Source: Lentinus brumalis (taxonomy: Eukaryota; Basidiomycota; Agaricomycetes; Polyporales; Polyporaceae). From it: a DNA stretch of 64,000 nucleotides. A program made the translations under genes and the position numbers. The stretch's first letter is position 1, and each line of letters opens with the position of its first letter. Where the stretch lies: NCBI GenBank assembly GCA_001792895.1, contig MARA01000005.1, positions 1,364,001 through 1,428,000 on the forward strand, read 5' to 3'. Below the pieces are notes generated by a model, which did no database searches, had not been told where the DNA came from, and was given only the letters and a program-made list of their open reading frames with translations. Shown here piece after piece: positions 21,841 to 64,000 of the stretch.

Positions 21841-21860
21841 TGCAACAGGGAATGCTCAGC
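21841..21860 (+). repeat. left terminal inverted repeat, copy 1
   Basis: TGCAACAGGGAATGCTCAGC. Its reverse complement matches 38889-38908 at 19 of 20 positions. The 8 bases outside (ttaactat) match the inter-copy spacer gtacctat at 6 of 8. Just inside, CTCAGC at 21855-21860 can pair with GCTGAG at 21869-21874, giving a small terminal hairpin. Confidence 0.85.
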
Positions 21861-22118
21861 TTCGTAGCGCTGAGAAATATGTCCATATAAGGATATTGTT
21901 TGGCGCTGCCGCACACGGCACGGTCCAGGACCCCGGAAACCCACATAGCGGTGCACTTATATACATTGTTACATCAGAAGCTAATGGTCAATAGTCACTG
22001 TTTACAAATGCGACCTAATCAACACGTTCAACCTTGCCTTCCTCGTGAGCTATCTTCACGTTGTCGATGGCTGACTTTGTAACCATCGGGAGCGACTGAC
22101 GAACTTCTACGGCAAGAT

Positions 22119-22343
22119 GTGAGTGCCTCTATTGTCACTTGAACTCAATACTTACCAACTTCATTCCGAATAGTGTCTTTCAAATCGCAATGGCGCGAAC
22201 CAAACACACCCAAATCGTCCTTTGAACCGGACGGACGATCCTCTGACGTCCCATCCGGATTCTTCTGGGCAAGATCTCCTGCTAGACGGTAAGTATCACT
22301 GCATATAAGTGATAGAATACTAACCATTGTTGCCAATATTCAG
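22119..22343 (+). other. short spliced transcript-like segment at the element's left end
   Basis: Two textbook fungal introns flank a 115-base exon. The first (22119-22173) has donor GTGAGT and acceptor TAG. The second (22289-22343) has donor GTAAGT, a perfect TACTAAC branch site and acceptor CAG. Joined across the first intron, one frame reads DELLRQDCLSNRNGANQTHP and on through SSGQDLLLD before a stop just past the second intron, so any protein is about 50 residues or the frame is broken. The segment is kept in all three copies with one base change (22250). It may be a small gene, a leader of a longer transcript, or a relic. Confidence 0.4.
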
Positions 22344-22435
22344 CTGTACGGTAGGGAAAGCGTGTGACATTGTTGGTGCGGTGATATGGCACGCACTACT
22401 GACTATATATGTTCAGGCCCACACTCTCCCTCTTC

Positions 22436-23260
22436 CGCCCTGCTCCCGCGCTGCCCGCGCTCCCGCTCCTGCTCCCGCTCCCGCTCCCGCTCCCGCGCCC
22501 GCTCCTGCTCCCGCTCCCGCTCCCGCGCCCGCGCCCGTGCCCGCTCCCGCTCCCGCGCCCGCGCCCGTGCCCGCTCCCGCTCCCGCGCCCGTGCCCGCTC
22601 CCGCTCCCGCGCCCGTGCCCGCTCCCGCTCCTGCTCCCACTCCCGCTCCCGCTTCCGCCCCTGCTCCTGCTTGCTCTCCCGCCATCTGTACCACATGGTC
22701 GCCATCTGCCGCCCCTGTAGGCTCCACCTTCCACCTTGTCTCCCGTCTCTCGTCTCCCGTCTCCCATCTCCCGCCTCTCGTCTCCCGTCTCCCATCGCCC
22801 GTCCCCTTCTGTCTCCCGTCTCCCGTCTCCTGTCTCCAGTCTCCCGTCTCCCGTCGCCCGTGTCCCGTGTCCCGTGTCCCGTCTCCCGTCTCCCGTCTCC
22901 CGTCTCCCGTCTCCCGTCTCCTGTCTCCCGTCTCCGTCTCCCGTCTCCGTCTCCCGTCTCCCGTCTCCTCGTCTGCCTGTCTGCCTCGTCTGCCCATCTC
23001 CCGTCTCCCGTCTCCCGTCTCCCGTCTCCTGTCTCCTGTCTCCCTCGCCCGCCCATCGCCCGTCCCCTTCTGTCTCCCGTCTCCCGTCTCCTGTCTCCAG
23101 TCTCCCGTCTCCCGTCGCCCGTGTCCCGTGTCCCGTCTCCCGTCTCCCGTCTCCTGTCTCCCGTCTCCGTCTCCCGTCTCCGTCTCCCGTCTCGTGTCTC
23201 CCTCGTCCGCCCGTCGCCCGTCTTCCGTCTCCCGTCGCCCGTCGCCCGCCCGTCGCCTAA
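22436..23260. repeat. compound minisatellite: CCCGCT hexamers then CCCGTCT heptamers, copy 1
   Basis: The first part (about 22440-22670) is built of 6-base units CCCGCT, CCCGTG and CCCGCG. After a 70-base non-repeat linker comes a longer part (about 22735-23250) of 7-base units CCCGTCT with CCTGTCT and CCCGTGT variants. A decayed tail with related words runs to about 23560. Length differs among the three copies, as expected of slippage. Because 6-base units keep all frames open, long Ala-Pro, Arg-Ser and Gly-Ala frames appear on both strands; these are by-products of composition. Confidence 0.9.
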
Positions 23261-23744
23261 CTCCTTGTCTTCCTGACAACTTCTCCACCGTTCCCCATGG
23301 CCTGTTCTCGAGCTCCTCGTCTACCTGTCTGCTCTGGCTCGCCGGTTTGCCGTTGTCTGTTTTCCGTCGCCCGCCTCCTGGTCTCCCTCTCGGCCATCTC
23401 GTCTGCCTGTCTTCTGTCTTCCGTCCCAGTCTGCCCTCTCCTCGTCTGCCGTTGCCCTGTCTGCTTGCCTGTCTGCCACCTCCTGACTTTGATCTACTGT
23501 TACCGTTGCCCACCTCCCGTTCTCCTCCTGCTGCTCCCCCTGTTGCCCGTTGCCCATGTACTATGCATGTTGGCACAGTGAAGGAGTCTTCTTTGGTGTT
23601 CACGAAGTAGGTGGTCACGAGGAGTGGCTACGTCATCGTATACTATCTTGTGGCGTTGAAGGTACAGTTGAATTAACGAGCCATATGTACTTATATGCGT
23701 ATGTAACATGGCATCATAGGCGGGCAATAGCATCGGTGTACGTA

Positions 23745-26700
23745 TCACGGATCAGACGGCCGGACGACAGGTTCTAGCCGGAAGTGACGGCAGAAGTGGT
23801 TGCAGACATGTCTCTGGACGAAGACATCGTAGCCAGAATTGCCCATTGCAAACAACTGGTCCCCGAGTCGTCTGATTGTGAGTCTATTAGCACATGAATG
23901 CCATGCAAATAGAATCAAACGCACGGATGTGTGACAATTTGCGGGTCCGTCAAGTATTTCCCCGAGCCTAGGTACACCGTCAGCATTAAACATATATGCA
24001 CGTAATGGCCGCAGGCTTGTACCTTGGTAGTCGGTGACAAACACCATGCCCTCCGTGAGGATAAACTGGACATGCTGCGTAAAGGACAGAAACTCGGCAA
24101 TGGCATAGATAGCCTCGCCATCCTTGAGGTCTTCTTTGGGCCGTAGAGGCATTGGCGAGTCGTTGTTGATGTACTTGACAAACCGTCCTTCAATTGTGCG
24201 CTCAACAAGGTATACGTTGCCCGTGGGGTCCTTGCACAACCCCGCCTCTACGAAGTCAAGGTCCCATGGTATCTTGAATGCTGGCTCGCCAACCTCCTTC
24301 ACGAGTTCGTCAAGGTATACATACACCTCCTGCAGTAAGGCCCTGGCCCAGACCAAACAGCGGGCCTCTGTATGCAGCAACCGTGCCTGCTTTGTGCCCG
24401 TGTGAGGGATGCGTCTCTGGGGGTCTGCTGGCGTGGCGTACACCGTTTGCTTGGCACAGACATCTAGCACTTCTCCGGCCGGTGCACCGAGGATGCCATC
24501 GGTGCGTGATGAGATTGTTCCAAACCAGGCCTTTTTAAACGTCCCCAGCTTCGCATTCTTGTTCGTCTTCTTCAGTCGCAGTGTGGCAGGGACCTGTGCG
24601 AGGATTATCTCGAGCCCGCTGTCCCCAGGTCGGCATAGGTCTGCGTATGGGAGCGCTGCGACGGGATGGAACTCGACTGTAATGGCATCCAGAGACACTG
24701 GACGTATTGAACGTAATTCATCAGGTTTTGGTCATTCGAGGTGCCAGCGTGTCATGTATACGTACATATGTCTTCGATTGCACTTGCCGAGTGTGCATTC
24801 AGGGCCTTGAGGGCCGCTGTCAAAGTGGCACGTGGAACAGACGAGGCAGCTGCACCCCTGGCACGAGAGGCTAGGATGACATTCCCCACATGGGCTGAGG
24901 CAGCCAGGTGGTCGGGGTTGGGCAGGCTGTCGATGGGACTACTGCGTGAGGCGCCGGCGTGGTCGTCTAGTGGTTTTGTCTGGAGAGACCTCGAAGACAT
25001 CACCCGTCCCGGAGACCTGGTCGCACCCTGTCCGTCGACCTGGTTCGGAACGCATAAGCACAGCCGGCATCCCTAGATCGCATCTGGAACGCACCGTATT
25101 GTTCACGCTGGGCCCACTGCGCTTTTGTGTCGGAGTACGATGAGTCGAGAACGGACGGGGTGTCGCCTTGCGAGGAGTCGTACGGGCTAGTGTGGTGTTC
25201 TTCTTAGACTCGGAGACCTCGGAGTCGCTGTCCGACAATTCGTACACCGTCGGTAACTGCATATGTAGAACTGTAAGCATTCCAACTCCTGCAAACGTGC
25301 CAGTTTTACCTTTGCATGCTTATCATGTCCCGTTTTGCGTAGCTTGGCAGGCTTGGTAGGTGACGCAACATGGAGTCGCTAATTCGCAGTGTACAAAATC
25401 AATACACGAGTCACACGGGTGAGATTATATGTTTCATACCTTTTTGTTTTTCCCGGCATTCGGGTCAAGAACGAGCTCCGCGATTTTGCCATAGCCCAGG
25501 GGGCTAATAGCAAGCTGGCGGGTCTCGATCTCTTCGATATGTGCTTCCACTTGCGCGAGTTTATCTGGCTCCAGCTCAAGTTGGACTACCCACGGGTTCT
25601 TGGGTGCCTTGAACGCAACTGAGACAACACCCTTCCGTCGCGACTTGACTAGGAATCGCTCGTAGATCACATCGTATTGGACAGCCGCCATGCCACCTCC
25701 TGCCAGTTTGGCCCAACCAGAGTCACGAAGCACAAAGAATGCGGCAGGGTCGTCAACTGGGAAGCCACAGGTACGTTTGTGCCACTTCTCCCGGAGGCTC
25801 TCAAACCCCAAGTTGGCCAGCTGAACGGACCCGATGTGGGCGTCGACACCATGAACACCCTCGAAAAGGTTCTATAGCCCATGATCATGATCAGTTCAAG
25901 CTGCCAATACATGGATGCGATCAGTGGCAAACGCACCCCCCACATCTCTCCTTTCTTTTTACCCTCGGGCTGTGTGACGATCTCGAACTGAAGGGGCACG
26001 AGTTCACGGAGGGAGCTATGCATGGAATTGCTGACCATTCGGGCGCGATGTGCACCATACTGCAGGTGATTGGGTGTATATCCCTGGAGGTTGAGCCCCG
26101 ATATTGCTGACAAGGCCCCGGTCTGGGTTACCACCGGCTGAACGTGTTTGGGCGCTAGGTCAAGTGTAAGGACCGGCAAATTTCAAGGACAGAGCTTGAC
26201 TACATACCTGGCAGGTGTACCACATTATGCGGGGCAGTGTTAAGGAGAGGGGAACGTGCATACGGATCCATCTGCGCGACTTGCATGTGCGGAACAGATG
26301 GCCCAAATGTCTGCGAAGTGGGGCGTCCACCAGGAATAGCGACAATAGGGCCAGGGCCTGTAAGCCAGATTTATTAATTGCAAACATTAGTGTAGTAAAT
26401 GTGCACACTCACCGACAGCCTGCACTGGTGTTGTCGGTACTAACAAAGCTCGCTCAGCCCCAGTTAAAAATTTCAGCATATGTCACCGCTCACCTCCACG
26501 CATGCCGTCCGAGACTTGCTGCATGCGGCCTGCAGCTGCACTTGCTGAAGTAAGAGGAAGCACTTGGCCATAATGACTTTGTTCTACATCTGCCAGCGTG
26601 AGGCTCAATATCTTCCCCACGGCACGAGCGAAGCGAGGAGGCTGTCTACCCCATCAGAAAATGATGTGCGCTGCGTACCTTCCCGCCTTTTGCTGCTGCC

Positions 26701-26904
26701 CTTTAACTTGTAGTAATCATAACATCCCTTGCATAACAACCGCCCCTCTCCATTCCCAGCACGCTTGTCCTCCACGAAGAATAGTTCGTCCTTGCGGAAT
26801 GGTCCTTTGCGACAGCGTGGGCAGGGATTGGCATGCCCAGTGTCCTTGGTAAACGAAGCAGCCCAAACTGAATTCGCTTGAGGACCTGCCCTGTTAGCGT
26901 CCAT
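23745..26904 (-). CDS. alpha-kinase domain protein with N-terminal zinc-finger-like segment, copy 1
   Basis: Alpha-kinases are atypical Ser/Thr kinases (eEF2K, MHCK type), strongly expanded in Agaricomycetes. The proposed start MDANRAGPQANSVWAASF is followed by a four-cysteine segment, CPRCRKGPF ... LLCKGCYDYY, a likely zinc ribbon. A middle region with PVDDPAAFFVLRDSGWAKLA is not recognised; a basic/acidic linker (YELSDSDSEVSESKKNT) comes next. The C-terminal kinase shows LGTFKKAWFG (glycine-rich entry), VYLVERTIEGRFVKYINN, AIAEFLSFTQHVQF and VTDYQG. An intron then leads to KYLTDPQIVTHP, another intron (about 23882-23935) to RLGDQLFAM, and the end is VCNHFCRHFRLEP, matching the family H.CN.FC..L.L zinc site. 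About ten exons; edges before 25400 are approximate. It is transcribed away from the integrase gene, 203 bases apart. Copy 1 has Lys where copies 2 and 3 have Glu (codon at 25646). Confidence 0.85.
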
Positions 26905-27107
26905 TTTGGTGATCCCAGAAACCAGCAGCACCGAAGCGAGCAATAGAGTGCGAGGAATAGAAGAGCTCGGTTGAGCATTGACTCGCAGCGGCAGGTATGC
27001 AAGCATTAATAACAATTATTTTAGTGATCTAGCCCCAACTAGATTGCGACTCACCTTCAGGTTGCGATCCACCATCCAACCTTCCTGCAGACACCTCCCA
27101 GTCAATA
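26905..27107. promoter_or_regulatory. divergent promoter between alpha-kinase and integrase
   Basis: The two proposed start codons face away from each other across 203 bases, so both genes must be driven from this interval. It includes an AT-rich patch (27004-27026, taataacaattattttag). Any coordinate control of kinase and transposase would act here. If an extra upstream exon exists for the kinase, the interval would be shorter. Confidence 0.45.
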
Positions 27108-29030
27108 ATGTCTGCAGTGAAGGCTGTTCGACGGGGAAATCAGCACAAGCCAAATCGTACGTGATCTACAGTGTGTGGTCGTAATGTGCATAATGGTAAT
27201 GTGTGGTCACTAGCCCCGGATGAAGAGTTGCGCCCACTGGTGGAGTATTACTGGAGTCTGGGTCTCAATGGAAAGGATATCGTCAGTCAGGTGTGCGATG
27301 AAATTGATCTAGAGCAGTATGGCTTCAGGTATGTAGACCTACTACCTAGCCGACCGTTCACCATGATGATAACTCACAGGACATTTTTCCAACCCCAGCT
27401 ATGCCAGCTTCCGCAGGCGCAAGGATGAATGGGGCCTGCAGGGCGTGCGCCGACAAGGCCATACCATCGAAACCATCCAGGCAGCTGTAAAGGAAGTCCG
27501 TATGCGCTTTCCGACCATGGGCGCACGTGCAATGGTCGCCCACCTCCGAACGCACTATAATGACATGCGCGTCCCTGAGTGAGTCGCCTAGTATTCTCAG
27601 GTGCATATTGAGTTTGACGAAGTCCACAGGAAAGTGCTTCTGAAGTACTTCCGTATGGTAGAGCCGCAGGCCGTTCTGGAACGCAAGTTTCGCCGGTTCA
27701 AACGTCGCCTGTTCTGGGTCGCTGGCGTTAACGACTTGTGGTGCTTTGATCAGCACGACAAGCTCAGACGTTTCGGTCTGTTTCTGCACGCTGGCTATGA
27801 GCCTGGTGCGGGTCGTATTGTCTGGATGAAGATCTGGTGGACGAACCGTAATCCTCGCTTGGTGACTTCATATTACCTCGAGGCTGCACGGAAGATTCAA
27901 GGTGGGTTGTTGCGGCGATTGTAATGTGCATTTGCATAATCATTGTATCTTGGACAGGCATACCTCTCCTCACCCAGAGCGACCCAGGGACCGAGAATGT
28001 TGGCATTGCCAATTGCCACACGAACATCCGTCATGAGCTCGATCCCTCCCTTGCAGAGACCAGGCAGCACCGGTGGATGCGGATGAAGGCCAACATCAAA
28101 CCTGAGATTGTGTGGTCTATTCTCCGTCGCATGTGGTCGCCTGGCTTTGAAAATTGTCTGCAGGAAGGCCTCGGTGTATATTACGATCCGGAGGATCCCA
28201 TGGAGAGGTACGTCAACAAGCGATGATTTGCCGACCAACCTACAACTCACAGTCATGTAGATTGTTATTTCTGTGGCTTGCAGTGCCATGGCTTCAGGCT
28301 GAACTCGACAGTTGGGTGGCCCAGTTCAACAGTACCCAGCGTCGTAAAGACAAGCACAAGATTCTCCCGCAGGGCATCCCAGACCTTGTAACCCGCAAGC
28401 CGGAACGCTACCAGATGCTCGACTTTAAGGTTCGTGGTGTTCACTTTCCCGGTGTCTTACCCGCACATCAAATGTTTGAATACTCCACATTAGGTCACAG
28501 TTCAGCCTGAGCTGTTCGATCGCATGGAGGCAGCATGGGCCCCGCCCGATCATGCAGTTTTCCAGCTCGTCCCACCCGAGTTCGGGAACATCATGACCAA
28601 TTTGTACCAAAATCTCGGGTCGCCGGTGGTGCAGCGCGAGACGTTCTGGCCTGTCTACAACGCCATGCATGACGCGATGGCCCAGGCAGTGGCAGCAGAA
28701 CAATTTCAGGAGGATATCCACACCCGTGAGCGGGTGGAAGAGGAGGAGGTTGAGCCTTTGCCGGGCTTGCGGGAGATGCGTCTGGGCGGACAGGGACCTC
28801 ATGGGTTGTATGCCGGCGGAGCAGCTGCGCCTGCCGTACCTGCGTCATTTGAGAAGTGGTACAAGGCTAACCATGCGCCCGAGGATGTCCATGATGATGG
28901 GACTGATGGGGAGGAAGACGGTGACGAGGATGAAGGGGACGAGTCAGATGACGAGTACCGTGTCCAGGCAGAGTTCTCGGACGACGAGGATTACGACCCT
29001 GTGGCAGCGTCTTTTACTGCTTGCTCCTAA
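27108..29030 (+). CDS. DDE integrase-core transposase with N-terminal helix-turn-helix, copy 1
   Basis: Probable mobility enzyme of the element. Exons join in phase: 27108-27156; 27214 onward (PPDEELRPLVEYYWSLGLNG); YASFRRRKDEWGLQGVRRQG to YNDMRVPE; KVLLKYFRMVEPQAVLERK through the catalytic region; and later exons to a TAA at 29028-29030. The N-terminus looks like a helix-turn-helix (KDIVSQVCDEIDLEQYGFSY). The core has three candidate catalytic acids: Asp in NDLWCFDQHDKLRRFGLFLH, Asp in LLTQSDPGTENVGIAN, and Glu in NIKPEIVWSILRR. It is followed by LLFLWLAVPWLQAELDSWVA and QFNSTQRRKDKHK, the layout of the eukaryotic integrase-core family also seen in fish elements. The C-terminus is strongly acidic (DGEEDGDEDEGDESDDEYRV). 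Intron retention in any copy would break it. Integrase-type chemistry fits the TG...CA element ends. Confidence 0.8.
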
Positions 29031-29668
29031 TGTAATCGCCGTTACTACTCATGTGCATACTACATGTGGTGGGATGTTTATACTGCAATTAGGGATGCAG
29101 ATGTGCGCGCCAACCTCCGTGTTGCGTCTGAGGCGAACGAGTCAGCTTATTGTCACAGGGGCATTTCCAGAAGGATTTTGAGTAACATGAGAGATATGCC
29201 ACACATACCATGGCACGAGTACAACAGTGACTGAATCCCGATGGCACGCATCAGCGCTGCTCCCGCCCGGCTGATGCAAGAGAGTGAGATGGGATGACAT
29301 GGAACATGAAGGTGTTGACCGACCCAATCGTGAGATATCATTCCGGAGCCGTGATCAACATTTTTTGAGTCCATGTGATGCGACGGTATGACCACACCAA
29401 GGCCACCGCACTGGGTGTATGCATGTTCACTCGTGGAGGTTTTGATAACCGTCTGAATTGGGATCGGATTCGCGACCAGAGCAGTTCAGAGGAATAATTT
29501 TGGGATGGGTTACGAGGGGCCGATGAGAGAGACATAACTAGATGTGGGTAGTTTGAGGATGAGCGTTGCAAAAAGCCTGAAATCAATACTATGGGCGCCT
29601 CCCCATCGAAGATGCATTGGCCAGTCTCGGTCTGTCTCGGTGTAAGACGGTGTAACTACAACATCATG
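29031..29668. other. convergent intergenic segment, copy 1
   Basis: The integrase gene and the unrecognised gene end towards each other here. About 640 bases; short open frames on the minus strand show no family and no splice logic. Likely 3' untranslated sequence of both. Confidence 0.4.
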
Positions 29669-31824
29669 TCAAGTATGTATAAGCGCATGCCCCTTATTGT
29701 ATTTGCACAGTATATGCTCCAATGCGATCTCGTCAAACCCAATAGCCGACTTGACAACTGAGGACAATCTCTGGTCAAGAAACTCGTACACACGTATAAA
29801 CCCTGCGACAACCTCTTCTACAGATGCATTCATCCCAGAAATTTGATTGCTGGTAATCAAGCCCTTGAATGATCCCTTCTTGTTTTTGTGCACCACACGA
29901 GCCACCTCCGCGCAACTGGGACGTTCTACTATGCCGGCGTAGTACATATCACCAGCAAGCAAAAAGGCAGTCAATCCCCCTAGGATGGGGAACCGACCTC
30001 CAGCATGATGTTCTCCTGTCTCCGGATGGATCCAACCCACTCGCGCGTGCATCCAGTTCAAGAAGGCGGCAAACGGCACTGGTTGATCACCATGATGATG
30101 ACGAAGTTGTACATATTCATGCTCCTTGTCAAAGTACACTCGGGCGAAGATGTGGCCGCGATCGCGACGATCCACCTGAGGATTCCCATATGCTTTCTGA
30201 TTGAAGAAGATATCTCGAGAGTTCACATCGTCTTTGTTGAATCCGTGCGTCCGTAAGAATGCCTCCCACGCTGCCAGGTCTGCATAATATCCATTGGACA
30301 ACGTCAAGGCTCGCGAATGGAACGTCAGTCCACGGAATATTGCGCAACTAGGAAACGACCCTGGTTGTCCCTGTTGCAGCTGTGTGTATGGACCATGAGA
30401 TCCACGAATGTGTGTTCTGGAAGGAGCGTGCTCGCGCAGAGGACTGTAGCGATCCAAGTCTTTCATGACAAAGGCTTGTAGCGGGGAGGGTTGTTCGGGA
30501 CGTGCCTCATGAGCTAAGGCTGCCACGTCTTCGAGATATTTCAAGACTGAGTGCAAACCGCTGTCCTCCTGGGAGATTGATCGAGGTACCACTGCGCTTT
30601 GAGAACCTTTGGCATGATGGCGTTGCGGCAGGGACCTTTCCACAAATGAGGGAGGGGTCGGCGGACCACCGTGCAAGACAGTCTCGACGAATGTCTGTAC
30701 CTCTTTGTGCAATGTGGGATCGCACCGCTTCAAAGCAGCTGAGATGTCTTTCAGCGTACGAGCTTCATGGGACAGAGGGTCTGCCAAAGGGAGAGACCGA
30801 AGGTTTGCAACGAATAGATCCAGATCATTGATCCTGAGACTGGACGCCTTCTTTTTACGGCAGCCAAGGACGGAGGTCTTGATGGTCCGATAGGTCTTCC
30901 AAACCCCATGAAGAAGCAACACCGATGCCTCCAAGTCGAACGTATGTAGGACGTGTATGACGTAGTATGACGAAAGAAGTTCGGTGTTCGATGGGAAGGA
31001 TAACCATGTGCGAAGGACGTTCACCACACGAGTGCATACGGCTTCGGCGATTGTGACTCCTGATTTGCCTTCCGAAGATATCATGAACGATGGGCATGAA
31101 CTGTCAAGGGGTAGGGGAAGATAATCTCCCGCGTTGACAGTGACCTGGCTGCGGGTGGTGACGGCGCGATATATCTCATGAACCAACTTGGTTAGCCATT
31201 CGCCTGACCCTTCAGCCCATCCACCATGGCGGGGCTCATCCAAATTCCCGGCCTCCAGCTCCTGCACGACCGCTACCACATGATTGACGCAGTCGTGTAT
31301 TAACCAATGCCAGGCGCATACACTGCTCAACATTATATCTCATTGCCGGTGCCGCAGAGACAGTTCTGAAACCTGTGTTCTCATGATACGGCTTTCGTGT
31401 TGAGGCCACATGCGAGAGAATATGGTAGCAAATTGCGAGGTGGTACGATCATTGGTAAGGATCGTTCGAAGGAAGGACATGTCATCCCCACTGGCCTGCA
31501 TGCCATCAATGGAATGGGAGTGCGTGATTGTTTGAGCCATTTGCTCGAAGAAGTCCCACTCTGAGGCCAGATTGCTGCGACCAAAACATTCGAGAGCTTT
31601 CAGGAAAACTTGGGGCAGTTCAGGATCAACAATGATGGCGCAAATGTATAATTACAGACCTGGGGGAGACGAAGACGGTGGCGTGTTTTCTACTCCAGAG
31701 CTACCATGTGCATTCAAAGGCAACATCTCTACAGGGCAATGAGATACTGAACACACAACATTTTGACTGCGTCACGTACCAATTTGATCAGACAATCCGA
31801 CCGAGCCAGAAGCGCGAGGTTCAT
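29669..31824 (-). CDS. unrecognised element protein (>550 aa), copy 1
   Basis: I do not recognise this protein. The main exon (29669-31333) encodes about 550 residues from SVCAWHWLIHDCVNHVVAVV to ALEHILCKYNKGHALIHT. Helical blocks include YYVIHVLHTFDLEASVLLLH and PFAAFLNWMHARVGWIHPET, and the best-ordered segment is GGRFPILGGLTAFLLAGDMY; the middle is polar. Upstream exons plausibly start at 31824 (MNLALLARSDCLIKL), then MLPLNAHGSSGVENTPPSSS, VFLKALECFGRSNLASEWDF and DMSFLRTILTNDRTTSQFAT, giving over 600 residues. The splice between MRTQ (about 31380) and the main exon is unresolved: the frame is shared but a TGA lies between, and the obvious GT-AG pair shifts phase. It sits 91 bases after the stop of the dioxygenase gene in the same direction, close enough for linked transcription. 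No signal peptide or clear membrane span. Confidence 0.6.
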
Positions 31825-31915
31825 TGTTGCGAGGTTGATGAAGCGACGCAGTGGACACTAATATAGTCGTTATTCAATTTTTCTGCTGTTCTGCCGTCGA
31901 GCAATATATATACTA

Positions 31916-34315: not shown

Positions 34316-34904
34316 AGGAGCACGAGCTGGGCCGCCGAATCCTGGTCAGTTCAACATACCACCTACAGAGGTGTGCAACATACGTGGAGCCGGGGGAGAC
34401 GTGTTGCCCTTCCGCGCAGTACGTGGATGTCGCGGCGGCATCTATATGTACGATCAGAATATTCCCGGACACCAACAGATGTAGACAACGCGCCTTGGTA
34501 ACGCGATGAAGGAAGAGGGAGAACCTGAGGTGGTACAACCACCGTCAAGCGTGGAATGGTGATGTGAATATAGGGGTGGTCGTAGACGTGCGAGCGTACA
34601 ACCAATGTTGGTGTACGAACTTTGGTTGAACAGCTGTGGATGAGAATCAGACTGATGCGTGCATGAAGCATGACATGGCATGAAGCAAGACATACCAACG
34701 TCGACTGTGAGATGGGGAGGTGCGAGACGAGGCGGGCGCAGTGAAAGTATGGGGAAGAGGTGGGCGAGCTGAAGGCATCCATGAGCTTATATAGCTGCAA
34801 CATCGAGCGGAAACGCCGCAAATGGTGTGATGCAGCCATCAGACAGGGGCCCGGGGACGGAATCACAGGCCCATGCACCGGGTCATGTGGGTACTGGACA
34901 GGGG

Positions 34905-34959
34905 CAGAACTCCCGCCGGAGGCGACACAGATCTGTGTCGCCCTCCGGCGGGAGTTCTG
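34905..34959. repeat. long palindrome, copy 1 (one base short of perfect)
   Basis: Arms begin CAGAACTCCCGCCGGAGG and meet at ACAGATCTGT. In copy 2 the two 28-base arms are perfectly complementary with no loop; in copy 1 one G is missing from the left arm (ggaggcg rather than ggagggcg), leaving a single bulge. Confidence 0.9.
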
Positions 34960-34994
34960 ACATAGGGGGTGCCTTGTGTGTCGCCAACGAGCAG

Positions 34995-35035
34995 CTGAAG
35001 ACGTGCAGGATGGTGACACACCTGCAGGTCTTCAG
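34995..35035. repeat. second stem-loop, copy 1
   Basis: CTGAAGACGTGCAGG and CCTGCAGGTCTTCAG form a 15-base stem with one mismatch around an 11-base loop, starting 35 bases after the long palindrome. Present unchanged in copy 2. Confidence 0.8.
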
Positions 35036-38706: not shown

Positions 38707-38888
38707 CAATAGTAGCGCATACTCAATGTGGTGCATATAGTATGTGGCTGATGTTGATACGATAATAATAAGGCGGTAAGAAATGTGTTGATTACATGTT
38801 GTAAGGGATGGGATTAACTGAAGGAGAGGAGGTGTCAGGAGTGACCGGGGTCTCAAGGCGGCTATCATCGGCTATCACATTGTTTGTA

Positions 38889-38908
38889 GCTGAGCACTCC
38901 CTGTTGCA
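38889..38908 (-). repeat. right terminal inverted repeat, copy 1
   Basis: GCTGAGCACTCCCTGTTGCA, the reverse complement of the left repeat except for one base. Immediately before it, CGGCTATCA occurs twice (38859-38867 and 38869-38877) as a 10-base-period direct repeat. Confidence 0.85.
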
Positions 38909-38916
38909 GTACCTAT
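38909..38916. other. 8-bp inter-copy junction 1
   Basis: gtacctat lies between the right repeat of copy 1 and the left repeat of copy 2. The same 8 bases occur at junction 2. They could be a target duplication, a coupling sequence of a circular form, or four terminal bases from each end. Confidence 0.7.
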
Positions 38917-48872: not shown

Positions 48873-48963
48873 TGTTGCGAGGTTGATGAAGCGACGCAGT
48901 GGACACTAATATAGTCGTTATTCAATTTTTCTGCTGTTCTGCCGTCGAGCAATATATATACTA

Positions 48964-53020: not shown

Positions 53021-55758
53021 ATGTCAGCCTCACAGGACTGGTACGTCTTTACATTGTGAACCGAGGCGGTATCTGACGAGTTTTGCGACAGGCGCAGGAC
53101 TGCATATACGTTGGTCGACCATCGCGGACGGGTCTTTACGACCACCAATGTCCCCGCCGCAATCCACTTGCCGCAGTCGGCCGATCCAAACCCAGAACTC
53201 AACAAGAACCTTCGCGAGCTTCAAAGGCCGCAATTCATGATTCCACGGTTCCCTGAGATGCCCTTCCTCATGAACATCACACCTCTTGATGACCCGCTTC
53301 TCTCGCGTCTCGCCGTGCACGACGCATCCCTCCGCGCACACGAGTATGCCTCAGGATGGGCGCTGCAAGATGATATCAGACATTCATGGACGCGCCTGGA
53401 GAAAGGCCTTTGCTATATTTCAGACGTGCTTTTCGAGGCCTTACACTCGCCGGAATCACAGGCCGTCCGCAACAGAGAGAACTGGGAGACCCCGAGTGAC
53501 TGCGGATACCGTGGAATGTTCAGCTCCGAGTATCGGGCGACTCGTGCAGCCCGGCGCGCTCACGTTGCGTTCCTGTTCCTCGCCGCACGATGCTCTTTGG
53601 CAGTAGCGGTGTGGCAGATGGCAGATCCGCCCGTCACCGGGACAGTGCCCGCATGGTACCGCTTCCTCATAGACCGGAATGTTCCCGTCAGCTGGGCCGA
53701 CACCCTGCGACGCTCTGCTGTAACGGACTTCAATATAGGCATGCGCGTAGGGGCCGGTATCGATCTTTCCACCTGTCCGTGGCCCACATTGATTCCCACC
53801 CTCCGTGCTGCCCGTGTACCCTTGTATATGTACTGGGGTGGTGACGACGCTGAATTAATCCTCATGCGCGCATGGCAGGACTTTCCGAACTTGCGCGATC
53901 TCATGCCAACACGCACAGATCTGGCCTGCGCACGCACTCATGCATCCGGGAGGCTAGTATTTCACCTATACAAGGATTCAATATCGCGCGACCATCCAGA
54001 CCCAGCAGGAAATCTGACGACTCCCCCGTTTGGTCCGTTCCAGTACCCCGGAGAAACACGGGCTCAATTCTTCGCGCGGACAGAGAGATCCCAGCAGTCT
54101 CTGCGTCTGCGGGAGAAACCCGACGGCCTGGCCTTGCGAACCGCTCGCGAGAAGCATGTGACGGAAAGCCCTCTCCCTGATCGTCGCACACGAGTCTACA
54201 TATGGACACGAGCTGGCAACATCTACCCAGACGCTCCGCTGAAGTGGCATGAGCAAGACTACAGGCTGGCCGTACCACCAAGCGCAGTTCCGAATCTATT
54301 CAAAGTCCACCCGCAGGCGTACCGCCGATACAACTCGTTCTTCAACGAATGGGATCTGTGGTTTCCGGCATCTGTGAACCAAGCTGATCTGCTCACTCCC
54401 GAGGCGGGCTGGGACACCAATGTATGCACGCCAATTGATCATGCGTTGGAGCTTGCCCCAACACCGGACGCACACAAAGCACTGTCCAAGGTCACCCGTA
54501 CGGACGCCGAGCTGGCCCTGCGTGAAGATGTTCAAGCTCTCTACCCTTCGACATGCACGGCACGCGGGGTTGAAGTCTTGTTCGTGGAAGGCTTTGTCGA
54601 TATGTGGTATGGTGTACGTCCGAGCTCCGAGGACTTCTCCACGGTTCCCTGTGACGCGTACATCAAGGACGTGCACAGAATCCTCGGAATAATGGAGAAG
54701 GACGTGCCCTCAGACCCGGGGATGCGTCGTTCAATGGCTGCTTGGATCTGGGCGATGCTTCAGGAGGATCCCGATGCTCGCATCCTGACTGCGACAGGCG
54801 ACCTGTCCGTCAACTCACCACACTCCCTATGCGCGGAAGCGATGCGCATCCGTCGTCGTATCAGTGTGCATGCATACGACGCTGAAGACGGCGATGGGAC
54901 GGCCTGGAAGTTTGTTGTGCAATATGCCAAGGATCCCATTGACCAGGCATGGATACTGTGCACGAACGCGTGCGCGGTCCTCTTCCTCGTTCGTCATCCC
55001 GATCTTGAGACGAGTCAGGATGCTGCCCGGCACCTCGTCCTGTGCGGTGTACCTTTCAATACTGTCATCAAGAACCGTGCAGTTTCGACGTGGTCCTCCG
55101 CAGATGCACCGTCACGATACATTCCAGGCTCAATACCATCCGCGTACACGGCTGGCGCAGACGATTACCGGACATACACGGCGCGGGTAGGAGAGTTGCT
55201 GCACCGCCCGCGGGTGCGTGCGGCGTTCTTGCAAGGGGGCATCGTCTGGCGGCTTGTGTTGGAGGCCGTTGGCGCAGACGAGGATCTACGTGAGCGGTTC
55301 TTCGACGGAGTATGTGATGGACCTTCCGCGACGGGACTTGATTGTGTCGCCTCGACAGAGGATGAGCGGTGGTTTGATGACAGCCTTTCTATGTGGGAGC
55401 TGGATACAATTTGTGGGGTTTACACGGTATATACAGGTGCGCACGCCGGTGCTGGACACCATATTTGCCTCACGCTGACAGTTGCTTAGGCTCTGGTACA
55501 CAGACCGCAAATCTATCCTGGTGGCCACCGCACACGGTTTGGAAGGTGTCGGGTATGTGGTCGGGAATATGGACTCCGTGGAATGAGGAATGGTTCGGGA
55601 CGCGCCTTGCAGCGATTCAGAGTGGGAAGGCAGGGCCGAAGAACTACAGCACCTGGAAAGACTCGTTGAAGTCACACAAGCAGGCCAGGAAATTGAATCG
55701 GCAAGTGAGCGAACGTAGCGTACAGTTTGTGAGGGACTTCCTTGTACAACAAAGCTAG
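53021..55758 (+). CDS. Agaricomycete orphan-family protein, 877 aa, copy 2
   Basis: Same three exons and residues as the copy 1 gene, beginning MSASQDWRRTAYTLVDHRGR and ending in the NLSWWPPHTVWKVSG block and basic tail. Function unknown; reads towards the right inverted repeat of copy 2. Confidence 0.7.
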
Positions 55759-55940
55759 CAATAGTAGCGCATACTCAATGTGGTGCATATAGTATGTGGC
55801 TGATGTTGATACGATAATAATAAGGCGGTAAGAAATGTGTTGATTACATGTTGTAAGGGATGGGATTAACTGAAGGAGAGGAGGTGTCAGGAGTGACCGG
55901 GGTCTCAAGGCGGCTATCATCGGCTATCACATTGTTTGTA

Positions 55941-55960
55941 GCTGAGCACTCCCTGTTGCA
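55941..55960 (-). repeat. right terminal inverted repeat, copy 2
   Basis: Identical to the right repeat of copy 1, with the same CGGCTATCA direct repeats before it. Confidence 0.85.
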
Positions 55961-55968
55961 GTACCTAT
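55961..55968. other. 8-bp inter-copy junction 2
   Basis: gtacctat, identical to junction 1. Identity of both junctions means they arose by duplicating one event or are dictated by the element ends. Confidence 0.7.
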
Positions 55969-55988
55969 TGCAACAGGGAATGCTCAGC
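55969..55988 (+). repeat. left terminal inverted repeat, copy 3
   Basis: Identical to the left repeats of copies 1 and 2. Confidence 0.85.
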
Positions 55989-56246
55989 TTCGTAGCGCTG
56001 AGAAATATGTCCATATAAGGATATTGTTTGGCGCTGCCGCACACGGCACGGTCCAGGACCCCGGAAACCCACATAGCGGTGCACTTATATACATTGTTAC
56101 ATCAGAAGCTAATGGTCAATAGTCACTGTTTACAAATGCGACCTAATCAACACGTTCAACCTTGCCTTCCTCGTGAGCTATCTTCACGTTGTCGATGGCT
56201 GACTTTGTAACCATCGGGAGCGACTGACGAACTTCTACGGCAAGAT

Positions 56247-56471
56247 GTGAGTGCCTCTATTGTCACTTGAACTCAATACTTACCAACTTCATTCCGAATA
56301 GTGTCTTTCAAATCGCAATGGCGCGAACCAAACACACCCAAATCGTCCTTTGAACCGGACGGACGATCCTCTGACGTTCCATCCGGATTCTTCTGGGCAA
56401 GATCTCCTGCTAGACGGTAAGTATCACTGCATATAAGTGATAGAATACTAACCATTGTTGCCAATATTCAG
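56247..56471 (+). other. short spliced transcript-like segment, copy 3
   Basis: Same intron-like pair as in copies 1 and 2, with the copy 2 base at the variant site. Confidence 0.4.
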
Positions 56472-56563
56472 CTGTACGGTAGGGAAAGCGTGTGACATTG
56501 TTGGTGCGGTGATATGGCACGCACTACTGACTATATATGTTCAGGCCCACACTCTCCCTCTTC

Positions 56564-57362
56564 CGCCCTGCTCCCGCGCTGCCCGCGCTCCCGCTCCTGC
56601 TCCCGCTCCCGCTCCCGCTCCCGCGCCCGCTCCTGCTCCGCTCCCGCTCCCGCGCCCGCGCGCCCCCCGCCCGTCCGCTCCCGCGCCCGCGCCCGTGCCC
56701 GCTCCCGCTCCCGCGCCCGCCGTGCCCGCTCCCGCTCCCGCGCCCGTGCCCGCTCCCGCTCCTGCTCCCACTCCCGCTCCCGCTTCCGCCCCTGCTCCTG
56801 CTTGCTCTCCCGCCATCTGTACCACATGGTCGCCATCTGCCGCCCCTGTAGGCTCCACCTTCCACCTTGTCTCCCGTCTCTCGTCTCCCGTCTCCCATCT
56901 CCCGCCTCTCGTCTCCCGTCTCCCATCGCCCGTCCCCTTCTGTCTCCCGTCTCCCGTCTCCTGTCTCCAGTCTCCCGTCTCCCGTCGCCCGTGTCCCGTG
57001 TCCCGTGTCCCGTCTCCGTCTCCCGTCTCCGTCTCCCGTCTCCCGTCTCCTCGTCTGCCTGTCTGCCTCGTCTGCCCGTCTCCCGTCTCCCGTCTCCCGT
57101 CTCCCGTCTCCCGTCTCCCGTCTCCCGTCTCCTGTCTCCTGTCTCCCTCGCCCGCCCATCGCCCGTCCCCTTCTGTCTCCCGTCTCCCGTCTCCTGTCTC
57201 CAGTCTCCCGTCTCCCGTCGCCCGTGTCCCGTGTCCCGTCTCCCGTCTCCCGTCTCCTGTCTCCCGTCTCCGTCTCCCGTCTCCGTCTCCGTCTCGTGTC
57301 TCCCTCGTCCGCCCGTCGCCCGTCTTCCGTCTCCCGTCGCCCGTCGCCCGCCCGTCGCCTAA
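56564..57362. repeat. compound minisatellite, copy 3
   Basis: The hexamer part is rearranged relative to copies 1 and 2 around 56635-56725 (single-base losses and a run of C near 56663), and one CCCGTCT-type unit is altered near 57285. These could be real slippage events or consensus errors in a hard-to-sequence GC repeat. Confidence 0.85.
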
Positions 57363-57846
57363 CTCCTTGTCTTCCTGACAACTTCTCCACCGTTCCCCAT
57401 GGCCTGTTCTCGAGCTCCTCGTCTACCTGTCTGCTCTGGCTCGCCGGTTTGCCGTTGTCTGTTTTCCGTCGCCCGCCTCCTGGTCTCCCTCTCGGCCATC
57501 TCGTCTGCCTGTCTTCTGTCTTCCGTCCCAGTCTGCCCTCTCCTCGTCTGCCGTTGCCCTGTCTGCTTGCCTGTCTGCCACCTCCTGACTTTGATCTACT
57601 GTTACCGTTGCCCACCTCCCGTTCTCCTCCTGCTGCTCCCCCTGTTGCCCGTTGCCCATGTACTATGCATGTTGGCACAGTGAAGGAGTCTTCTTTGGTG
57701 TTCACGAAGTAGGTGGTCACGAGGAGTGGCTACGTCATCGTATACTATCTTGTGGCGTTGAAGGTACAGTTGAATTAACGAGCCATATGTACTTATATGC
57801 GTATGTAACATGGCATCATAGGCGGGCAATAGCATCGGTGTACGTA

Positions 57847-60800
57847 TCACGGATCAGACGGCCGGACGACAGGTTCTAGCCGGAAGTGACGGCAGAAGTG
57901 GTTGCAGACATGTCTCTGGACGAAGACATCGTAGCCAGAATTGCCCATTGCAAACAACTGGTCCCCGAGTCGTCTGATTGTGAGTCTATTAGCACATGAA
58001 TGCCATGCAAATAGAATCAAACGCACGGATGTGTGACAATTTGCGGGTCCGTCAAGTATTTCCCCGAGCCTAGGTACACCGTCAGCATTAAACATATATG
58101 CACGTAATGGCCGCAGGCTTGTACCTTGGTAGTCGGTGACAAACACCATGCCCTCCGTGAGGATAAACTGGACATGCTGCGTAAAGGACAGAAACTCGGC
58201 AATGGCATAGATAGCCTCGCCATCCTTGAGGTCTTCTTTGGGCCGTAGAGGCATTGGCGAGTCGTTGTTGATGTACTTGACAAACCGTCCTTCAATTGTG
58301 CGCTCAACAAGGTATACGTTGCCCGTGGGGTCCTTGCACAACCCCGCCTCTACGAAGTCAAGGTCCCATGGTATCTTGAATGCTGGCTCGCCAACCTCCT
58401 TCACGAGTTCGTCAAGGTATACATACACCTCCTGCAGTAAGGCCCTGGCCCAGACCAAACAGCGGGCCTCTGTATGCAGCAACCGTGCCTGCTTTGTGCC
58501 CGTGTGAGGGATGCGTCTCTGGGGGTCTGCTGGCGTGGCGTACACCGTTTGCTTGGCACAGACATCTAGCACTTCTCCGGCCGGTGCACCGAGGATGCCA
58601 TCGGTGCGTGATGAGATTGTTCCAAACCAGGCCTTTTTAAACGTCCCCAGCTTCGCATTCTTGTTCGTCTTCTTCAGTCGCAGTGTGGCAGGGACCTGTG
58701 CGAGGATTATCTCGAGCCCGCTGTCCCCAGGTCGGCATAGGTCTGCGTATGGGAGCGCTGCGACGGGATGGAACTCGACTGTAATGGCATCCAGAGACAC
58801 TGGACGTATTGAACGTAATTCATCAGGTTTTGGTCATTCGAGGTGCCAGCGTGTCATGTATACGTACATATGTCTTCGATTGCACTTGCCGAGTGTGCAT
58901 TCAGGGCCTTGAGGGCCGCTGTCAAAGTGGCACGTGGAACAGACGAGGCAGCTGCACCCCTGGCACGAGAGGCTAGGATGACATTCCCCACATGGGCTGA
59001 GGCAGCCAGGTGGTCGGGGTTGGGCAGGCTGTCGATGGGACTACTGCGTGAGGCGCCGGCGTGGTCGTCTAGTGGTTTTGTCTGGAGAGACCTCGAAGAC
59101 ATCACCCGTCCCGGAGACCTGGTCGCACCCTGTCCGTCGACCTGGTTCGGAACGCATAAGCACAGCCGGCATCCCTAGATCGCATCTGGAACGCACCGTA
59201 TTGTTCACGCTGGGCCCACTGCGCTTTTGTGTCGGAGTACGATGAGTCGAGAACGGACGGGGTGTCGCCTTGCGAGGAGTCGTACGGGCTAGTGTGGTGT
59301 TCTTCTTAGACTCGGAGACCTCGGAGTCGCTGTCCGACAATTCGTACACCGTCGGTAACTGCATATGTAGAACTGTAAGCATTCCAACTCCTGCAAACGT
59401 GCCAGTTTTACCTTTGCATGCTTATCATGTCCCGTTTTGCGTAGCTTGGCAGGCTTGGTAGGTGACGCAACATGGAGTCGCTAATTCGCAGTGTACAAAA
59501 TCAATACACGAGTCACACGGGTGAGATTATATGTTTCATACCTTTTTGTTTTTCCCGGCATTCGGGTCAAGAACGAGCTCCGCGATTTTGCCATAGCCCA
59601 GGGGGCTAATAGCAAGCTGGCGGGTCTCGATCTCTTCGATATGTGCTTCCACTTGCGCGAGTTTATCTGGCTCCAGCTCAAGTTGGACTACCCACGGGTT
59701 CTTGGGTGCCTTGAACGCAACTGAGACAACACCCTTCCGTCGCGACTCGACTAGGAATCGCTCGTAGATCACATCGTATTGGACAGCCGCCATGCCACCT
59801 CCTGCCAGTTTGGCCCAACCAGAGTCACGAAGCACAAAGAATGCGGCAGGGTCGTCAACTGGGAAGCCACAGGTACGTTTGTGCCACTTCTCCCGGAGGC
59901 TCTCAAACCCCAAGTTGGCCAGCTGAACGGACCCGATGTGGGCGTCGACACCATGAACACCCTCGAAAAGGTTCTATAGCCCATGATCATGATCAGTTCA
60001 AGCTGCCAATACATGGATGCGATCAGTGGCAAACGCACCCCCCACATCTCTCCTTTCTTTTTACCCTCGGGCTGTGTGACGATCTCGAACTGAAGGGGCA
60101 CGAGTTCACGGAGGGAGCTATGCATGGAATTGCTGACCATTCGGGCGCGATGTGCACCATACTGCAGGTGATTGGGTGTATATCCCTGGAGGTTGAGCCC
60201 CGATATTGCTGACAAGGCCCCGGTCTGGGTTACCACCGGCTGAACGTGTTTGGGCGCTAGGTCAAGTGTAAGGACCGGCAAATTTCAAGGACAGAGCTTG
60301 ACTACATACCTGGCAGGTGTACCACATTATGCGGGGCAGTGTTAAGGAGAGGGGAACGTGCATACGGATCCATCTGCGCGACTTGCATGTGCGGAACAGA
60401 TGGCCCAAATGTCTGCGAAGTGGGGCGTCCACCAGGAATAGCGACAATAGGGCCAGGGCCTGTAAGCCAGATTTATTAATTGCAAACATTAGTGTAGTAA
60501 ATGTGCACACTCACCGACAGCCTGCACTGGTGTTGTCGGTACTAACAAAGCTCGCTCAGCCCCAGTTAAAAATTTCAGCATATGTCACCGCTCACCTCCA
60601 CGCATGCCGTCCGAGACTTGCTGCATGCGGCCTGCAGCTGCACTTGCTGAAGTAAGAGGAAGCACTTGGCCATAATGACTTTGTTCTACATCTGCCAGCG
60701 TGAGGCTCAATATCTTCCCCACGGCACGAGCGAAGCGAGGAGGCTGTCTACCCCATCAGAAAATGATGTGCGCTGCGTACCTTCCCGCCTTTTGCTGCTG

Positions 60801-61006
60801 CCCTTTAACTTGTAGTAATCATAACATCCCTTGCATAACAACCGCCCCTCTCCATTCCCAGCACGCTTGTCCTCCACGAAGAATAGTTCGTCCTTGCGGA
60901 ATGGTCCTTTGCGACAGCGTGGGCAGGGATTGGCATGCCCAGTGTCCTTGGTAAACGAAGCAGCCCAAACTGAATTCGCTTGAGGACCTGCCCTGTTAGC
61001 GTCCAT
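57847..61006 (-). CDS. alpha-kinase domain protein, copy 3
   Basis: Complete copy with the same exons; carries the Glu variant of copy 2 (FLVESRRKG). Kinase motifs and the C-terminal zinc-site HVCNHFCRH are intact. Confidence 0.85.
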
Positions 61007-61209
61007 TTTGGTGATCCCAGAAACCAGCAGCACCGAAGCGAGCAATAGAGTGCGAGGAATAGAAGAGCTCGGTTGAGCATTGACTCGCAGCGGCAGGTAT
61101 GCAAGCATTAATAACAATTATTTTAGTGATCTAGCCCCAACTAGATTGCGACTCACCTTCAGGTTGCGATCCACCATCCAACCTTCCTGCAGACACCTCC
61201 CAGTCAATA
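61007..61209. promoter_or_regulatory. divergent promoter between alpha-kinase and integrase, copy 3
   Basis: Same 203-base interval between diverging starts as in copies 1 and 2. Confidence 0.45.
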
Positions 61210-63132
61210 ATGTCTGCAGTGAAGGCTGTTCGACGGGGAAATCAGCACAAGCCAAATCGTACGTGATCTACAGTGTGTGGTCGTAATGTGCATAATGGTA
61301 ATGTGTGGTCACTAGCCCCGGATGAAGAGTTGCGCCCACTGGTGGAGTATTACTGGAGTCTGGGTCTCAATGGAAAGGATATCGTCAGTCAGGTGTGCGA
61401 TGAAATTGATCTAGAGCAGTATGGCTTCAGGTATGTAGACCTACTACCTAGCCGACCGTTCACCATGATGATAACTCACAGGACATTTTTCCAACCCCAG
61501 CTATGCCAGCTTCCGCAGGCGCAAGGATGAATGGGGCCTGCAGGGCGTGCGCCGACAAGGCCATACCATCGAAACCATCCAGGCAGCTGTAAAGGAAGTC
61601 CGTATGCGCTTTCCGACCATGGGCGCACGTGCAATGGTCGCCCACCTCCGAACGCACTATAATGACATGCGCGTCCCTGAGTGAGTCGCCTAGTATTCTC
61701 AGGTGCATATTGAGTTTGACGAAGTCCACAGGAAAGTGCTTCTGAAGTACTTCCGTATGGTAGAGCCGCAGGCCGTTCTGGAACGCAAGTTTCGCCGGTT
61801 CAAACGTCGCCTGTTCTGGGTCGCTGGCGTTAACGACTTGTGGTGCTTTGATCAGCACGACAAGCTCAGACGTTTCGGTCTGTTTCTGCACGCTGGCTAT
61901 GAGCCTGGTGCGGGTCGTATTGTCTGGATGAAGATCTGGTGGACGAACCGTAATCCTCGCTTGGTGACTTCATATTACCTCGAGGCTGCACGGAAGATTC
62001 AAGGTGGGTTGTTGCGGCGATTGTAATGTGCATTTGCATAATCATTGTATCTTGGACAGGCATACCTCTCCTCACCCAGAGCGACCCAGGGACCGAGAAT
62101 GTTGGCATTGCCAATTGCCACACGAACATCCGTCATGAGCTCGATCCCTCCCTTGCAGAGACCAGGCAGCACCGGTGGATGCGGATGAAGGCCAACATCA
62201 AACCTGAGATTGTGTGGTCTATTCTCCGTCGCATGTGGTCGCCTGGCTTTGAAAATTGTCTGCAGGAAGGCCTCGGTGTATATTACGATCCGGAGGATCC
62301 CATGGAGAGGTACGTCAACAAGCGATGATTTGCCGACCAACCTACAACTCACAGTCATGTAGATTGTTATTTCTGTGGCTTGCAGTGCCATGGCTTCAGG
62401 CTGAACTCGACAGTTGGGTGGCCCAGTTCAACAGTACCCAGCGTCGTAAAGACAAGCACAAGATTCTCCCGCAGGGCATCCCAGACCTTGTAACCCGCAA
62501 GCCGGAACGCTACCAGATGCTCGACTTTAAGGTTCGTGGTGTTCACTTTCCCGGTGTCTTACCCGCACATCAAATGTTTGAATACTCCACATTAGGTCAC
62601 AGTTCAGCCTGAGCTGTTCGATCGCATGGAGGCAGCATGGGCCCCGCCCGATCATGCAGTTTTCCAGCTCGTCCCACCCGAGTTCGGGAACATCATGACC
62701 AATTTGTACCAAAATCTCGGGTCGCCGGTGGTGCAGCGCGAGACGTTCTGGCCTGTCTACAACGCCATGCATGACGCGATGGCCCAGGCAGTGGCAGCAG
62801 AACAATTTCAGGAGGATATCCACACCCGTGAGCGGGTGGAAGAGGAGGAGGTTGAGCCTTTGCCGGGCTTGCGGGAGATGCGTCTGGGCGGACAGGGACC
62901 TCATGGGTTGTATGCCGGCGGAGCAGCTGCGCCTGCCGTACCTGCGTCATTTGAGAAGTGGTACAAGGCTAACCATGCGCCCGAGGATGTCCATGATGAT
63001 GGGACTGATGGGGAGGAAGACGGTGACGAGGATGAAGGGGACGAGTCAGATGACGAGTACCGTGTCCAGGCAGAGTTCTCGGACGACGAGGATTACGACC
63101 CTGTGGCAGCGTCTTTTACTGCTTGCTCCTAA
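61210..63132 (+). CDS. DDE integrase-core transposase, copy 3
   Basis: Complete and apparently identical in coding sequence to copies 1 and 2, including the candidate catalytic acids and acidic tail. Confidence 0.8.
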
Positions 63133-63770
63133 TGTAATCGCCGTTACTACTCATGTGCATACTACATGTGGTGGGATGTTTATACTGCAATTAGGGATGC
63201 AGATGTGCGCGCCAACCTCCGTGTTGCGTCTGAGGCGAACGAGTCAGCTTATTGTCACAGGGGCATTTCCAGAAGGATTTTGAGTAACATGAGAGATATG
63301 CCACACATACCATGGCACGAGTACAACAGTGACTGAATCCCGATGGCACGCATCAGCGCTGCTCCCGCCCGGCTGATGCAAGAGAGTGAGATGGGATGAC
63401 ATGGAACATGAAGGTGTTGACCGACCCAATCGTGAGATATCATTCCGGAGCCGTGATCAACATTTTTTGAGTCCATGTGATGCGACGGTATGACCACACC
63501 AAGGCCACCGCACTGGGTGTATGCATGTTCACTCGTGGAGGTTTTGATAACCGTCTGAATTGGGATCGGATTCGCGACCAGAGCAGTTCAGAGGAATAAT
63601 TTTGGGATGGGTTACGAGGGGCCGATGAGAGAGACATAACTAGATGTGGGTAGTTTGAGGATGAGCGTTGCAAAAAGCCTGAAATCAATACTATGGGCGC
63701 CTCCCCATCGAAGATGCATTGGCCAGTCTCGGTCTGTCTCGGTGTAAGACGGTGTAACTACAACATCATG
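63133..63770. other. convergent intergenic segment, copy 3
   Basis: Same content as the corresponding interval of the other copies; no gene seen. Confidence 0.4.
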
Positions 63771-64000
63771 TCAAGTATGTATAAGCGCATGCCCCTTATT
63801 GTATTTGCACAGTATATGCTCCAATGCGATCTCGTCAAACCCAATAGCCGACTTGACAACTGAGGACAATCTCTGGTCAAGAAACTCGTACACACGTATA
63901 AACCCTGCGACAACCTCTTCTACAGATGCATTCATCCCAGAAATTTGATTGCTGGTAATCAAGCCCTTGAATGATCCCTTCTTGTTTTTGTGCACCACAC
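63771..64000 (-). CDS. unrecognised element protein, copy 3 (C-terminal part only)
   Basis: Only the last 75 codons are inside the window (VHKNKKGSFKGLITSNQISG to the stop). The N-terminal part lies beyond the right edge, cut by the window and not by a break in the gene. Confidence 0.6.
   Translation of the reverse strand, partial: VVHKNKKGSFKGLITSNQISGMNASVEEVVAGFIRVYEFLDQRLSSVVKSAIGFDEIALEHILCKYNKGHALIHT

Follow-up and report, generated by a model that had tools for sequence, protein, structure and literature searches.

How can a fungal genome come to hold three nearly identical copies of a multi-gene transposon, joined end to end at a single site? The question is raised by a stretch of 64,000 nucleotides from the basidiomycete Lentinus brumalis (contig MARA01000005.1, here termed C82; C82:1364001-1428000), which was analysed as a whole and is called the window below; it lies on a contig of 2.5 Mb in an assembly of 53.4 Mb and 136 contigs. 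A preliminary description of the window had proposed a tandem head-to-tail array of a ~17-kb element that is bounded by terminal inverted repeats (TIRs) and carries cargo genes, and this is borne out by the alignments of the units (99.65-99.94% identity) and by their located ends. As to origin, we put the chances at about even that the array consists of three copies of a 17-kb transposon of the IS3EU superfamily, joined head to tail through an end-to-end junction that formed in a circle or a dimer and was then multiplied or inserted.

Structure of the array

Three near-identical units of ~17 kb, all head-to-tail on the plus strand, occupy window positions 21838-78603, the third running past the window edge. 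Unit 1 (21838-38911) has 17,074 bp, starts with TAT and finishes with GTA; unit 2 (38914-55963) has 17,050 bp; and unit 3 occupies 55966-64000 within the window and has its true end at 78603 (C82:1442603), 14.6 kb beyond the window. The length of unit 3, 22,638 bp, includes a long terminal repeat (LTR) element of ~5.58 kb. Thus, two complete units and part of a third, as originally counted, correctly described an array, but the third unit is complete as well.

The element termini are TAYTGCAACAGGG...CCCTGTTGCARTA, 3 bp farther out on each side (TAT on the left, GTA on the right) than had been stated. Inverted repeats of ~20 bp had been noted and are indeed present, but they start at these outer positions and are 24 bp long (22 of 24 positions matched; TAYTGCAACAGGGARTGCTCAGCT); in unit 1 they extend over 21838-21861 on the plus strand and 38888-38911 on the minus strand. 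The 10-mers TGCAACAGGG and CCCTGTTGCA delimit the three units at 21841/38908, 38917/55960 and 55969/78600. Including the array, three insertions of the family were found, the others being one split between contigs C65 and C51 and one on contig C73. At all three the left end reads TAY and the right end RTA, and a 6-bp target site duplication (TSD) stands directly outside: ATTAAC at the array, CGAAAC at C65/C51 and CTTTTG at C73; at any one locus, 6 bp would match by chance in about 1 of 4,096 cases.

Two other placements of the ends were considered. Ends at TGCAACAGGG with 8-bp spacers were rejected because TAY and RTA are constant at the three insertions and the 6-bp duplications start just outside them. 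Elements of the hAT superfamily have CAGGG ends and an 8-bp TSD, and a hAT reading was ruled out by the lack of any 8-bp duplication at those borders.

A single ATTAAC duplication encloses the entire array, with its left copy at 21832-21837 and its right copy directly after unit 3, outside the window at window positions 78604-78609, and no target duplication is present between units at either internal junction. In the genomic DNA both internal junctions read ...CCCTGTTGCAGTA-CC-TATTGCAACAGGG... and are identical; at each, GTA-CC-TAT, both element ends are intact to the base and are separated by a 2-bp CC spacer (38912-38913 between units 1 and 2, 55964-55965 between units 2 and 3). The 8-bp junctions reported earlier are therefore constant at both places, but they really consist of 6 bp of element ends plus the 2-bp spacer. 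When both array flanks were joined and used as a query, only the array sides matched in the assembly, with an overlap of exactly ATTAAC, and no empty site was present. The abutted intact ends, the constant spacer and the single outer duplication together point to an event in which two elements were linked, right end to left end, and this concatemer is the unusual part of the locus.

Divergence of the units

Units 1 and 2 are 99.75% identical over 17,073 columns, and units 1 and 3 are 99.65% identical over 15,483 columns and 99.94% over a further 1,601 columns. Most inter-unit differences (84 differing columns) lie in a GC-rich tract of short repeats, located at 22420-23490 in unit 1 and with counterparts in units 2 and 3. 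Outside this tract, in a count that leaves aside unit positions 580-1650 and one three-state column (unit position 13014), unit 1 has seven private substitutions (three of which stem from a single shifted indel) and five gap columns, unit 2 has no private substitution and unit 3 has two. Private variants include those at 25646 and 35583 in unit 1 and those at the unit 3 counterparts of 35391 and 37393. These private substitutions, together with an LTR insertion in unit 3 only, confirm the earlier view that the units are real duplicates with distinct small differences. The LTR insertion (C82:1435420-1441000, window 71420-77000, outside the window) lies inside open frame F, described below, and is flanked by a 5-bp duplication GGTTT; it is also young, since its two LTRs align over 747 columns with 0 mismatches and 3 gaps.

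When six sites were compared with the C65/C51 copy, three could be polarised; at one the copy differed from both states, and two lacked a counterpart. The base at 22250 that units 2 and 3 have in common is derived, as are those of unit 1 at 25646 and of unit 3 at 37393. On the basis of the one shared site, the split between units 2 and 3 may be the most recent.

Relationship to IS3EU and other known elements

Each unit carries a transposase gene on the plus strand (27108-29030 in unit 1, 44156-46078 in unit 2 and 61210-63132 in unit 3) with seven exons and 523 amino acids. The three genes are identical: over the 2.1-kb gene region units 2 and 3 have 100% identity to unit 1, and their coding sequences contain no indel and no stop other than the final one. 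The protein matches Pfam rva_4 above the cut-off (6.7e-9), an integrase core of the DD58D40E type whose catalytic residues D155, D214 and E255 are invariant in 30 aligned sequences, in line with the integrase-core enzyme that had been recognised at the outset. The DDE core is supported both by this match and by the fold, the best structural match of the model being IS21 IstA with a sequence identity of 11%. IS3, IS30 and hAT transposases are not among the 50 structural matches listed, which excludes nothing, and a PDB sequence search yielded no significant match (best E 0.77). The transposase has 291 homologues, the closest among the matches listed being in Trametes sanguinea (57% identity) and Cubamyces (54%), and we take the named homologues among 120 listed of the 291 to be basidiomycete proteins. 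An alpha-kinase gene neighbours the transposase on the opposite strand; the part encoding its catalytic domain lies at 23745-24731 (minus strand; PF02816, 4.1e-17 on the spliced gene end), and further exons extend upstream to ~27015 in a model made by eye.

The array element fits the IS3EU superfamily in its TA..TA ends, 6-bp TSDs, integrase-core transposase and opposed alpha-kinase. IS3EU elements are described with TA..TA termini and TSDs of usually 6 bp (PMC10045372), and fungal families with an oppositely oriented transposase and alpha-kinase (PMC12730594). The latter source gives the TET+ elements of rust fungi TIRs of more than 30 bp with TAYGG, whereas the array element has 24-bp TIRs beginning TAYTG; moreover, in the TET+ families a TET/JBP gene separates the transposase from the kinase gene, and in the array element these two adjoin each other. 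No TET/JBP domain was found in gene E of the unit (Pfam) or at the array in a genome-wide search, and such a gene is a feature of a subgroup and not of IS3EU as such. The array also differs from the published fungal elements in its 17-kb unit and its tandem trimer, an abutted array not being met in the available parts of those descriptions. Styx of Zymoseptoria (PMC10853768) has in common with it an IS3EU-like transposase, 6-bp TSDs, a multi-gene content and reported tandem duplications, but it is ~7.9 kb long, has 36-bp TIRs and other genes, and its tandem duplication takes in flanking host genes.

The preliminary description had found no match among the fungal giant elements, and the element is indeed not recognisable as a Starship or a Polinton, although, as seen above, it is compatible with a known superfamily. 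The hallmark of Starships is a captain gene that encodes a tyrosine recombinase. No tyrosine recombinase domain was found in nine open frames and three spliced models, which represent part of the frames of the unit, and the inverted ends, the 6-bp TSD and the DDE gene speak against a Starship. The frames scanned likewise contained no Pfam match to the protein-primed DNA polymerase B or capsid proteins of Polintons/Mavericks; the TSD length of 6 bp that these have in common with the array element is not enough for an assignment.

Origin of the array

If an element moved through circles or dimers, it would be expected to leave behind abutted ends, a short spacer between them and one 6-bp duplication around the whole, as seen in the array. 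Such a route is well established for bacteria; for eukaryotes, the literature consulted goes no further than a discussion of it for one animal lineage, KolobokP (PMC9587614). On this route, a right end would be linked to a left end across the 2-bp spacer, giving either a tandem dimer or a transposon circle, much as bacterial elements of the copy-out/paste-in type do (IS3, IS30, IS21 and IS256 families), and we infer circularisation. The junction-bearing DNA would then be multiplied: a concatemer might be inserted here by its outermost ends, a single unit might be inserted and CC-junction circles recombined into it, or units might be added through unequal exchange, and under all of these options the junctions would be identical and the outer duplication single. 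Joining and insertion would both be carried out by the transposase, and the alpha-kinase and the other genes would be passengers or helpers.

Precedents exist for several parts of this scheme. IS30 has a 2-bp spacer and forms tandem dimers (PMC9333248), and IS2 has a spacer of 1-2 bp (PMC3299598) versus a TSD of 5 bp, an exception to the usual equality of spacer and TSD lengths; in both, as in the array, right and left ends are abutted with 1-2 bp between them, but they are small bacterial elements with an experimentally proven mechanism, whereas the array is a genomic trace alone. ISCth4 forms spacers of 6-8 bp in vitro (PMC7780238). IstA of IS21 acts on single and on tandem elements, but IS21 requires the ATPase IstB (PMC10122671). 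KolobokP represents eukaryotic DDE transposon multimers that are usually TSD-flanked and for which the authors discuss a circular intermediate; it differs in its TTAA duplications and in a long terminal direct repeat common to neighbouring units (PMC9587614), whereas the array and its relatives have 6-bp TSDs of differing sequence, and neighbouring units in the array meet at CC without any sequence that belongs to both.

Several observations weigh against joining of the copy-out/paste-in kind. The spacer of 2 bp and the TSD of 6 bp are unequal in length, and the KolobokP authors state that such spacers are typically TSD-length (PMC9587614); in ISCth4, C/G spacers integrate less well than A/T spacers (PMC7780238). 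CC equals none of the six flanking dinucleotides at the three insertions, so that no donor is visible, and the donor site may have been lost. The HTH_21 domain is present in five of 36 transposase homologues and in three of three IS3-family transposases, and a Pfam scan did not find it in the array element's own enzyme. An hhalign comparison of the transposase with IS3 gave a weak probability of 2.7% (score 26.1, versus 23.0 for IS30, 22.0 for IS5 and 17.3-17.9 for shuffled sequences), and a common fold as such shows no mechanism. The end searches of the assembly found no abutted family junction outside the array, and no two of 30 other rva_4 loci lie within 60 kb of each other, in a search that missed the array's own exon-split gene; tandem arrays thus appear to be unusual.

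The same array sequence would be predicted if the transposase itself formed no circles, and elements excised by cut-and-paste were ligated head-to-tail as linear molecules by the host, the resulting concatemer or circle then being inserted or amplified by homologous recombination. CC would be filler or a leftover flank, which agrees with a spacer that is not TSD-length and is unlike any known family flank. However, end-joining frequently trims ends, and here neither element end has lost a base at either junction; in addition, the outer 6-bp duplication still needs insertion by the transposase. We regard this explanation as unlikely, yet as one with appreciable weight. Copy-out/paste-in-like joining is to us the most likely single route, with about half of the total probability; the sequence would look no different after host end-joining and subsequent recombination.

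A duplication of a single unit in place, by adjacent double insertion or by a replication or repair accident at its ends, followed by unequal exchange, would account for the derived base that units 2 and 3 have in common at 22250, since sequential addition is expected to produce such a site, albeit one site. The IS3EU-like Styx also has tandem duplications, though those included flanking genes (PMC10853768). Yet after a double insertion one would expect the units to be separated by a TSD or by flanking DNA, where CC alone is present, and a random breakpoint is unlikely to fall 0-2 bp from both ends, which makes rearrangement in place improbable. Slightly less probable still is a wrong unit number or junction in the assembly. 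The assembly has trouble with this family, as the other large copy is split across the ends of C65 and C51, and that copy has deletions in its transposase gene and a switch of type in ~6 kb of C51; against an artefact stand the distinct fixed differences of each unit, the LTR insertion in unit 3 alone and the 2.5-Mb contig, and even a miscounted array would still require a real GTA-CC-TAT junction.

A more far-reaching version of the copy-out/paste-in reading, namely that IS3EU elements in fungi generally transpose in this way via circles or dimers with 2-bp spacers and that the 17-kb trimer was inserted as one by its outermost ends, is possible, though we hold it tentatively and consider it more doubtful than the joining itself. 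If true, whole cargo cassettes would be multiplied in a single step. The array also illustrates how a fungus can acquire a multi-gene cassette in triplicate at a single site. For Styx, the authors observed that donor copies were retained, and they discuss repair and replication-linked routes (PMC10853768). In the literature within reach, which leaves out most subscription papers, we found neither circles nor abutted arrays described for IS3EU, nor a paper joining transposon, alpha-kinase, integrase and Basidiomycota; the KolobokP paper mentions IS3EU among other superfamilies in a list (PMC9587614).

Other copies of the family

A DNA search with ~0.5 kb of each end found five left and five right ends genome-wide, three of each in the array and the remaining two of each at C65/C51 and C73, so that by this count both abutted junctions of the family are in the array. 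The 10-mer alone is unspecific (115 genome matches versus 153 for a control pattern), and the junction pattern GCARTAN{0,14}TAYTGC has 132 sites, below its control (159); among 50 of these 132 that were listed, 15 chosen sites showed no longer inverted repeat by eye. Some sites of this pattern are regularly spaced on small contigs and resemble other repeats.

The sequences from C65:434764 and from C51:712863 to the respective contig ends overlap by 18 kb at 98.3% identity, and they are halves of one insertion because CGAAAC stands on the left side of the C65 copy and on the right side of its C51 counterpart. At its end, C51 matches the array units for ~6 kb before it switches to the C65 type, which may reflect a chimeric assembly, an unresolved second array or a real recombinant and calls for caution in reading the assembly where this family is concerned. 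Both copies have many short deletions in the transposase gene that, near contig ends as they are, may represent sequencing error or decay, the two being indistinguishable. The C51 copy also contains an insertion of ~4.5 kb between unit positions 14381 and 14387, the inverted ends of which are CACTA-like.

The copy at C73:251990-255980 (3,991 bp) has only its ends in common with the units (95 and 63 bp matched), its interior being unrelated, and is a non-autonomous relative. A second family at C76 has 44-61% identity in its main pieces and 32% in one piece; within 25001-45000 it showed no combination of TAY ends and an exact 6-bp TSD. Genome-wide, the 56 rva_4 matches listed merge into the 30 loci besides the array. 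Among the 29 Tet_JBP matches listed, seven are no more than 20 kb away from such a locus versus 0.65 expected (binomial p 3e-6, a statistic that assumes independence although some loci are possibly related copies), and other rva_4 elements of the genome may carry TET/JBP genes.

Further genes of the unit and its surroundings

Three further genes or frames were located in unit 1. Open frame D (29669-31339, minus strand) has 556 amino acids and no Pfam match. Gene E (32438-34345, minus strand, spliced by eye) looks dioxygenase-like by eye from an HxD...H motif of 2-oxoglutarate dioxygenases; it has no Pfam match, Tet_JBP included, a PDB search with part of it found none, and its one homologue has 297 amino acids. 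Open frame F (36008-38437, plus strand) has 809 amino acids from stop to stop and is broken in unit 3 by the LTR insertion; its predicted fold is unusable (predicted local distance difference test score of 42), and it has six homologues with 32-34% identity. A comparison of a homologue with PHROGs gave no match. To the left of the array, 9443-11128 and 13792-15477 are likely host genes, Clr2-like (Clr2_transil, 4.4e-12) and KAR9-like (1.2e-10), respectively.

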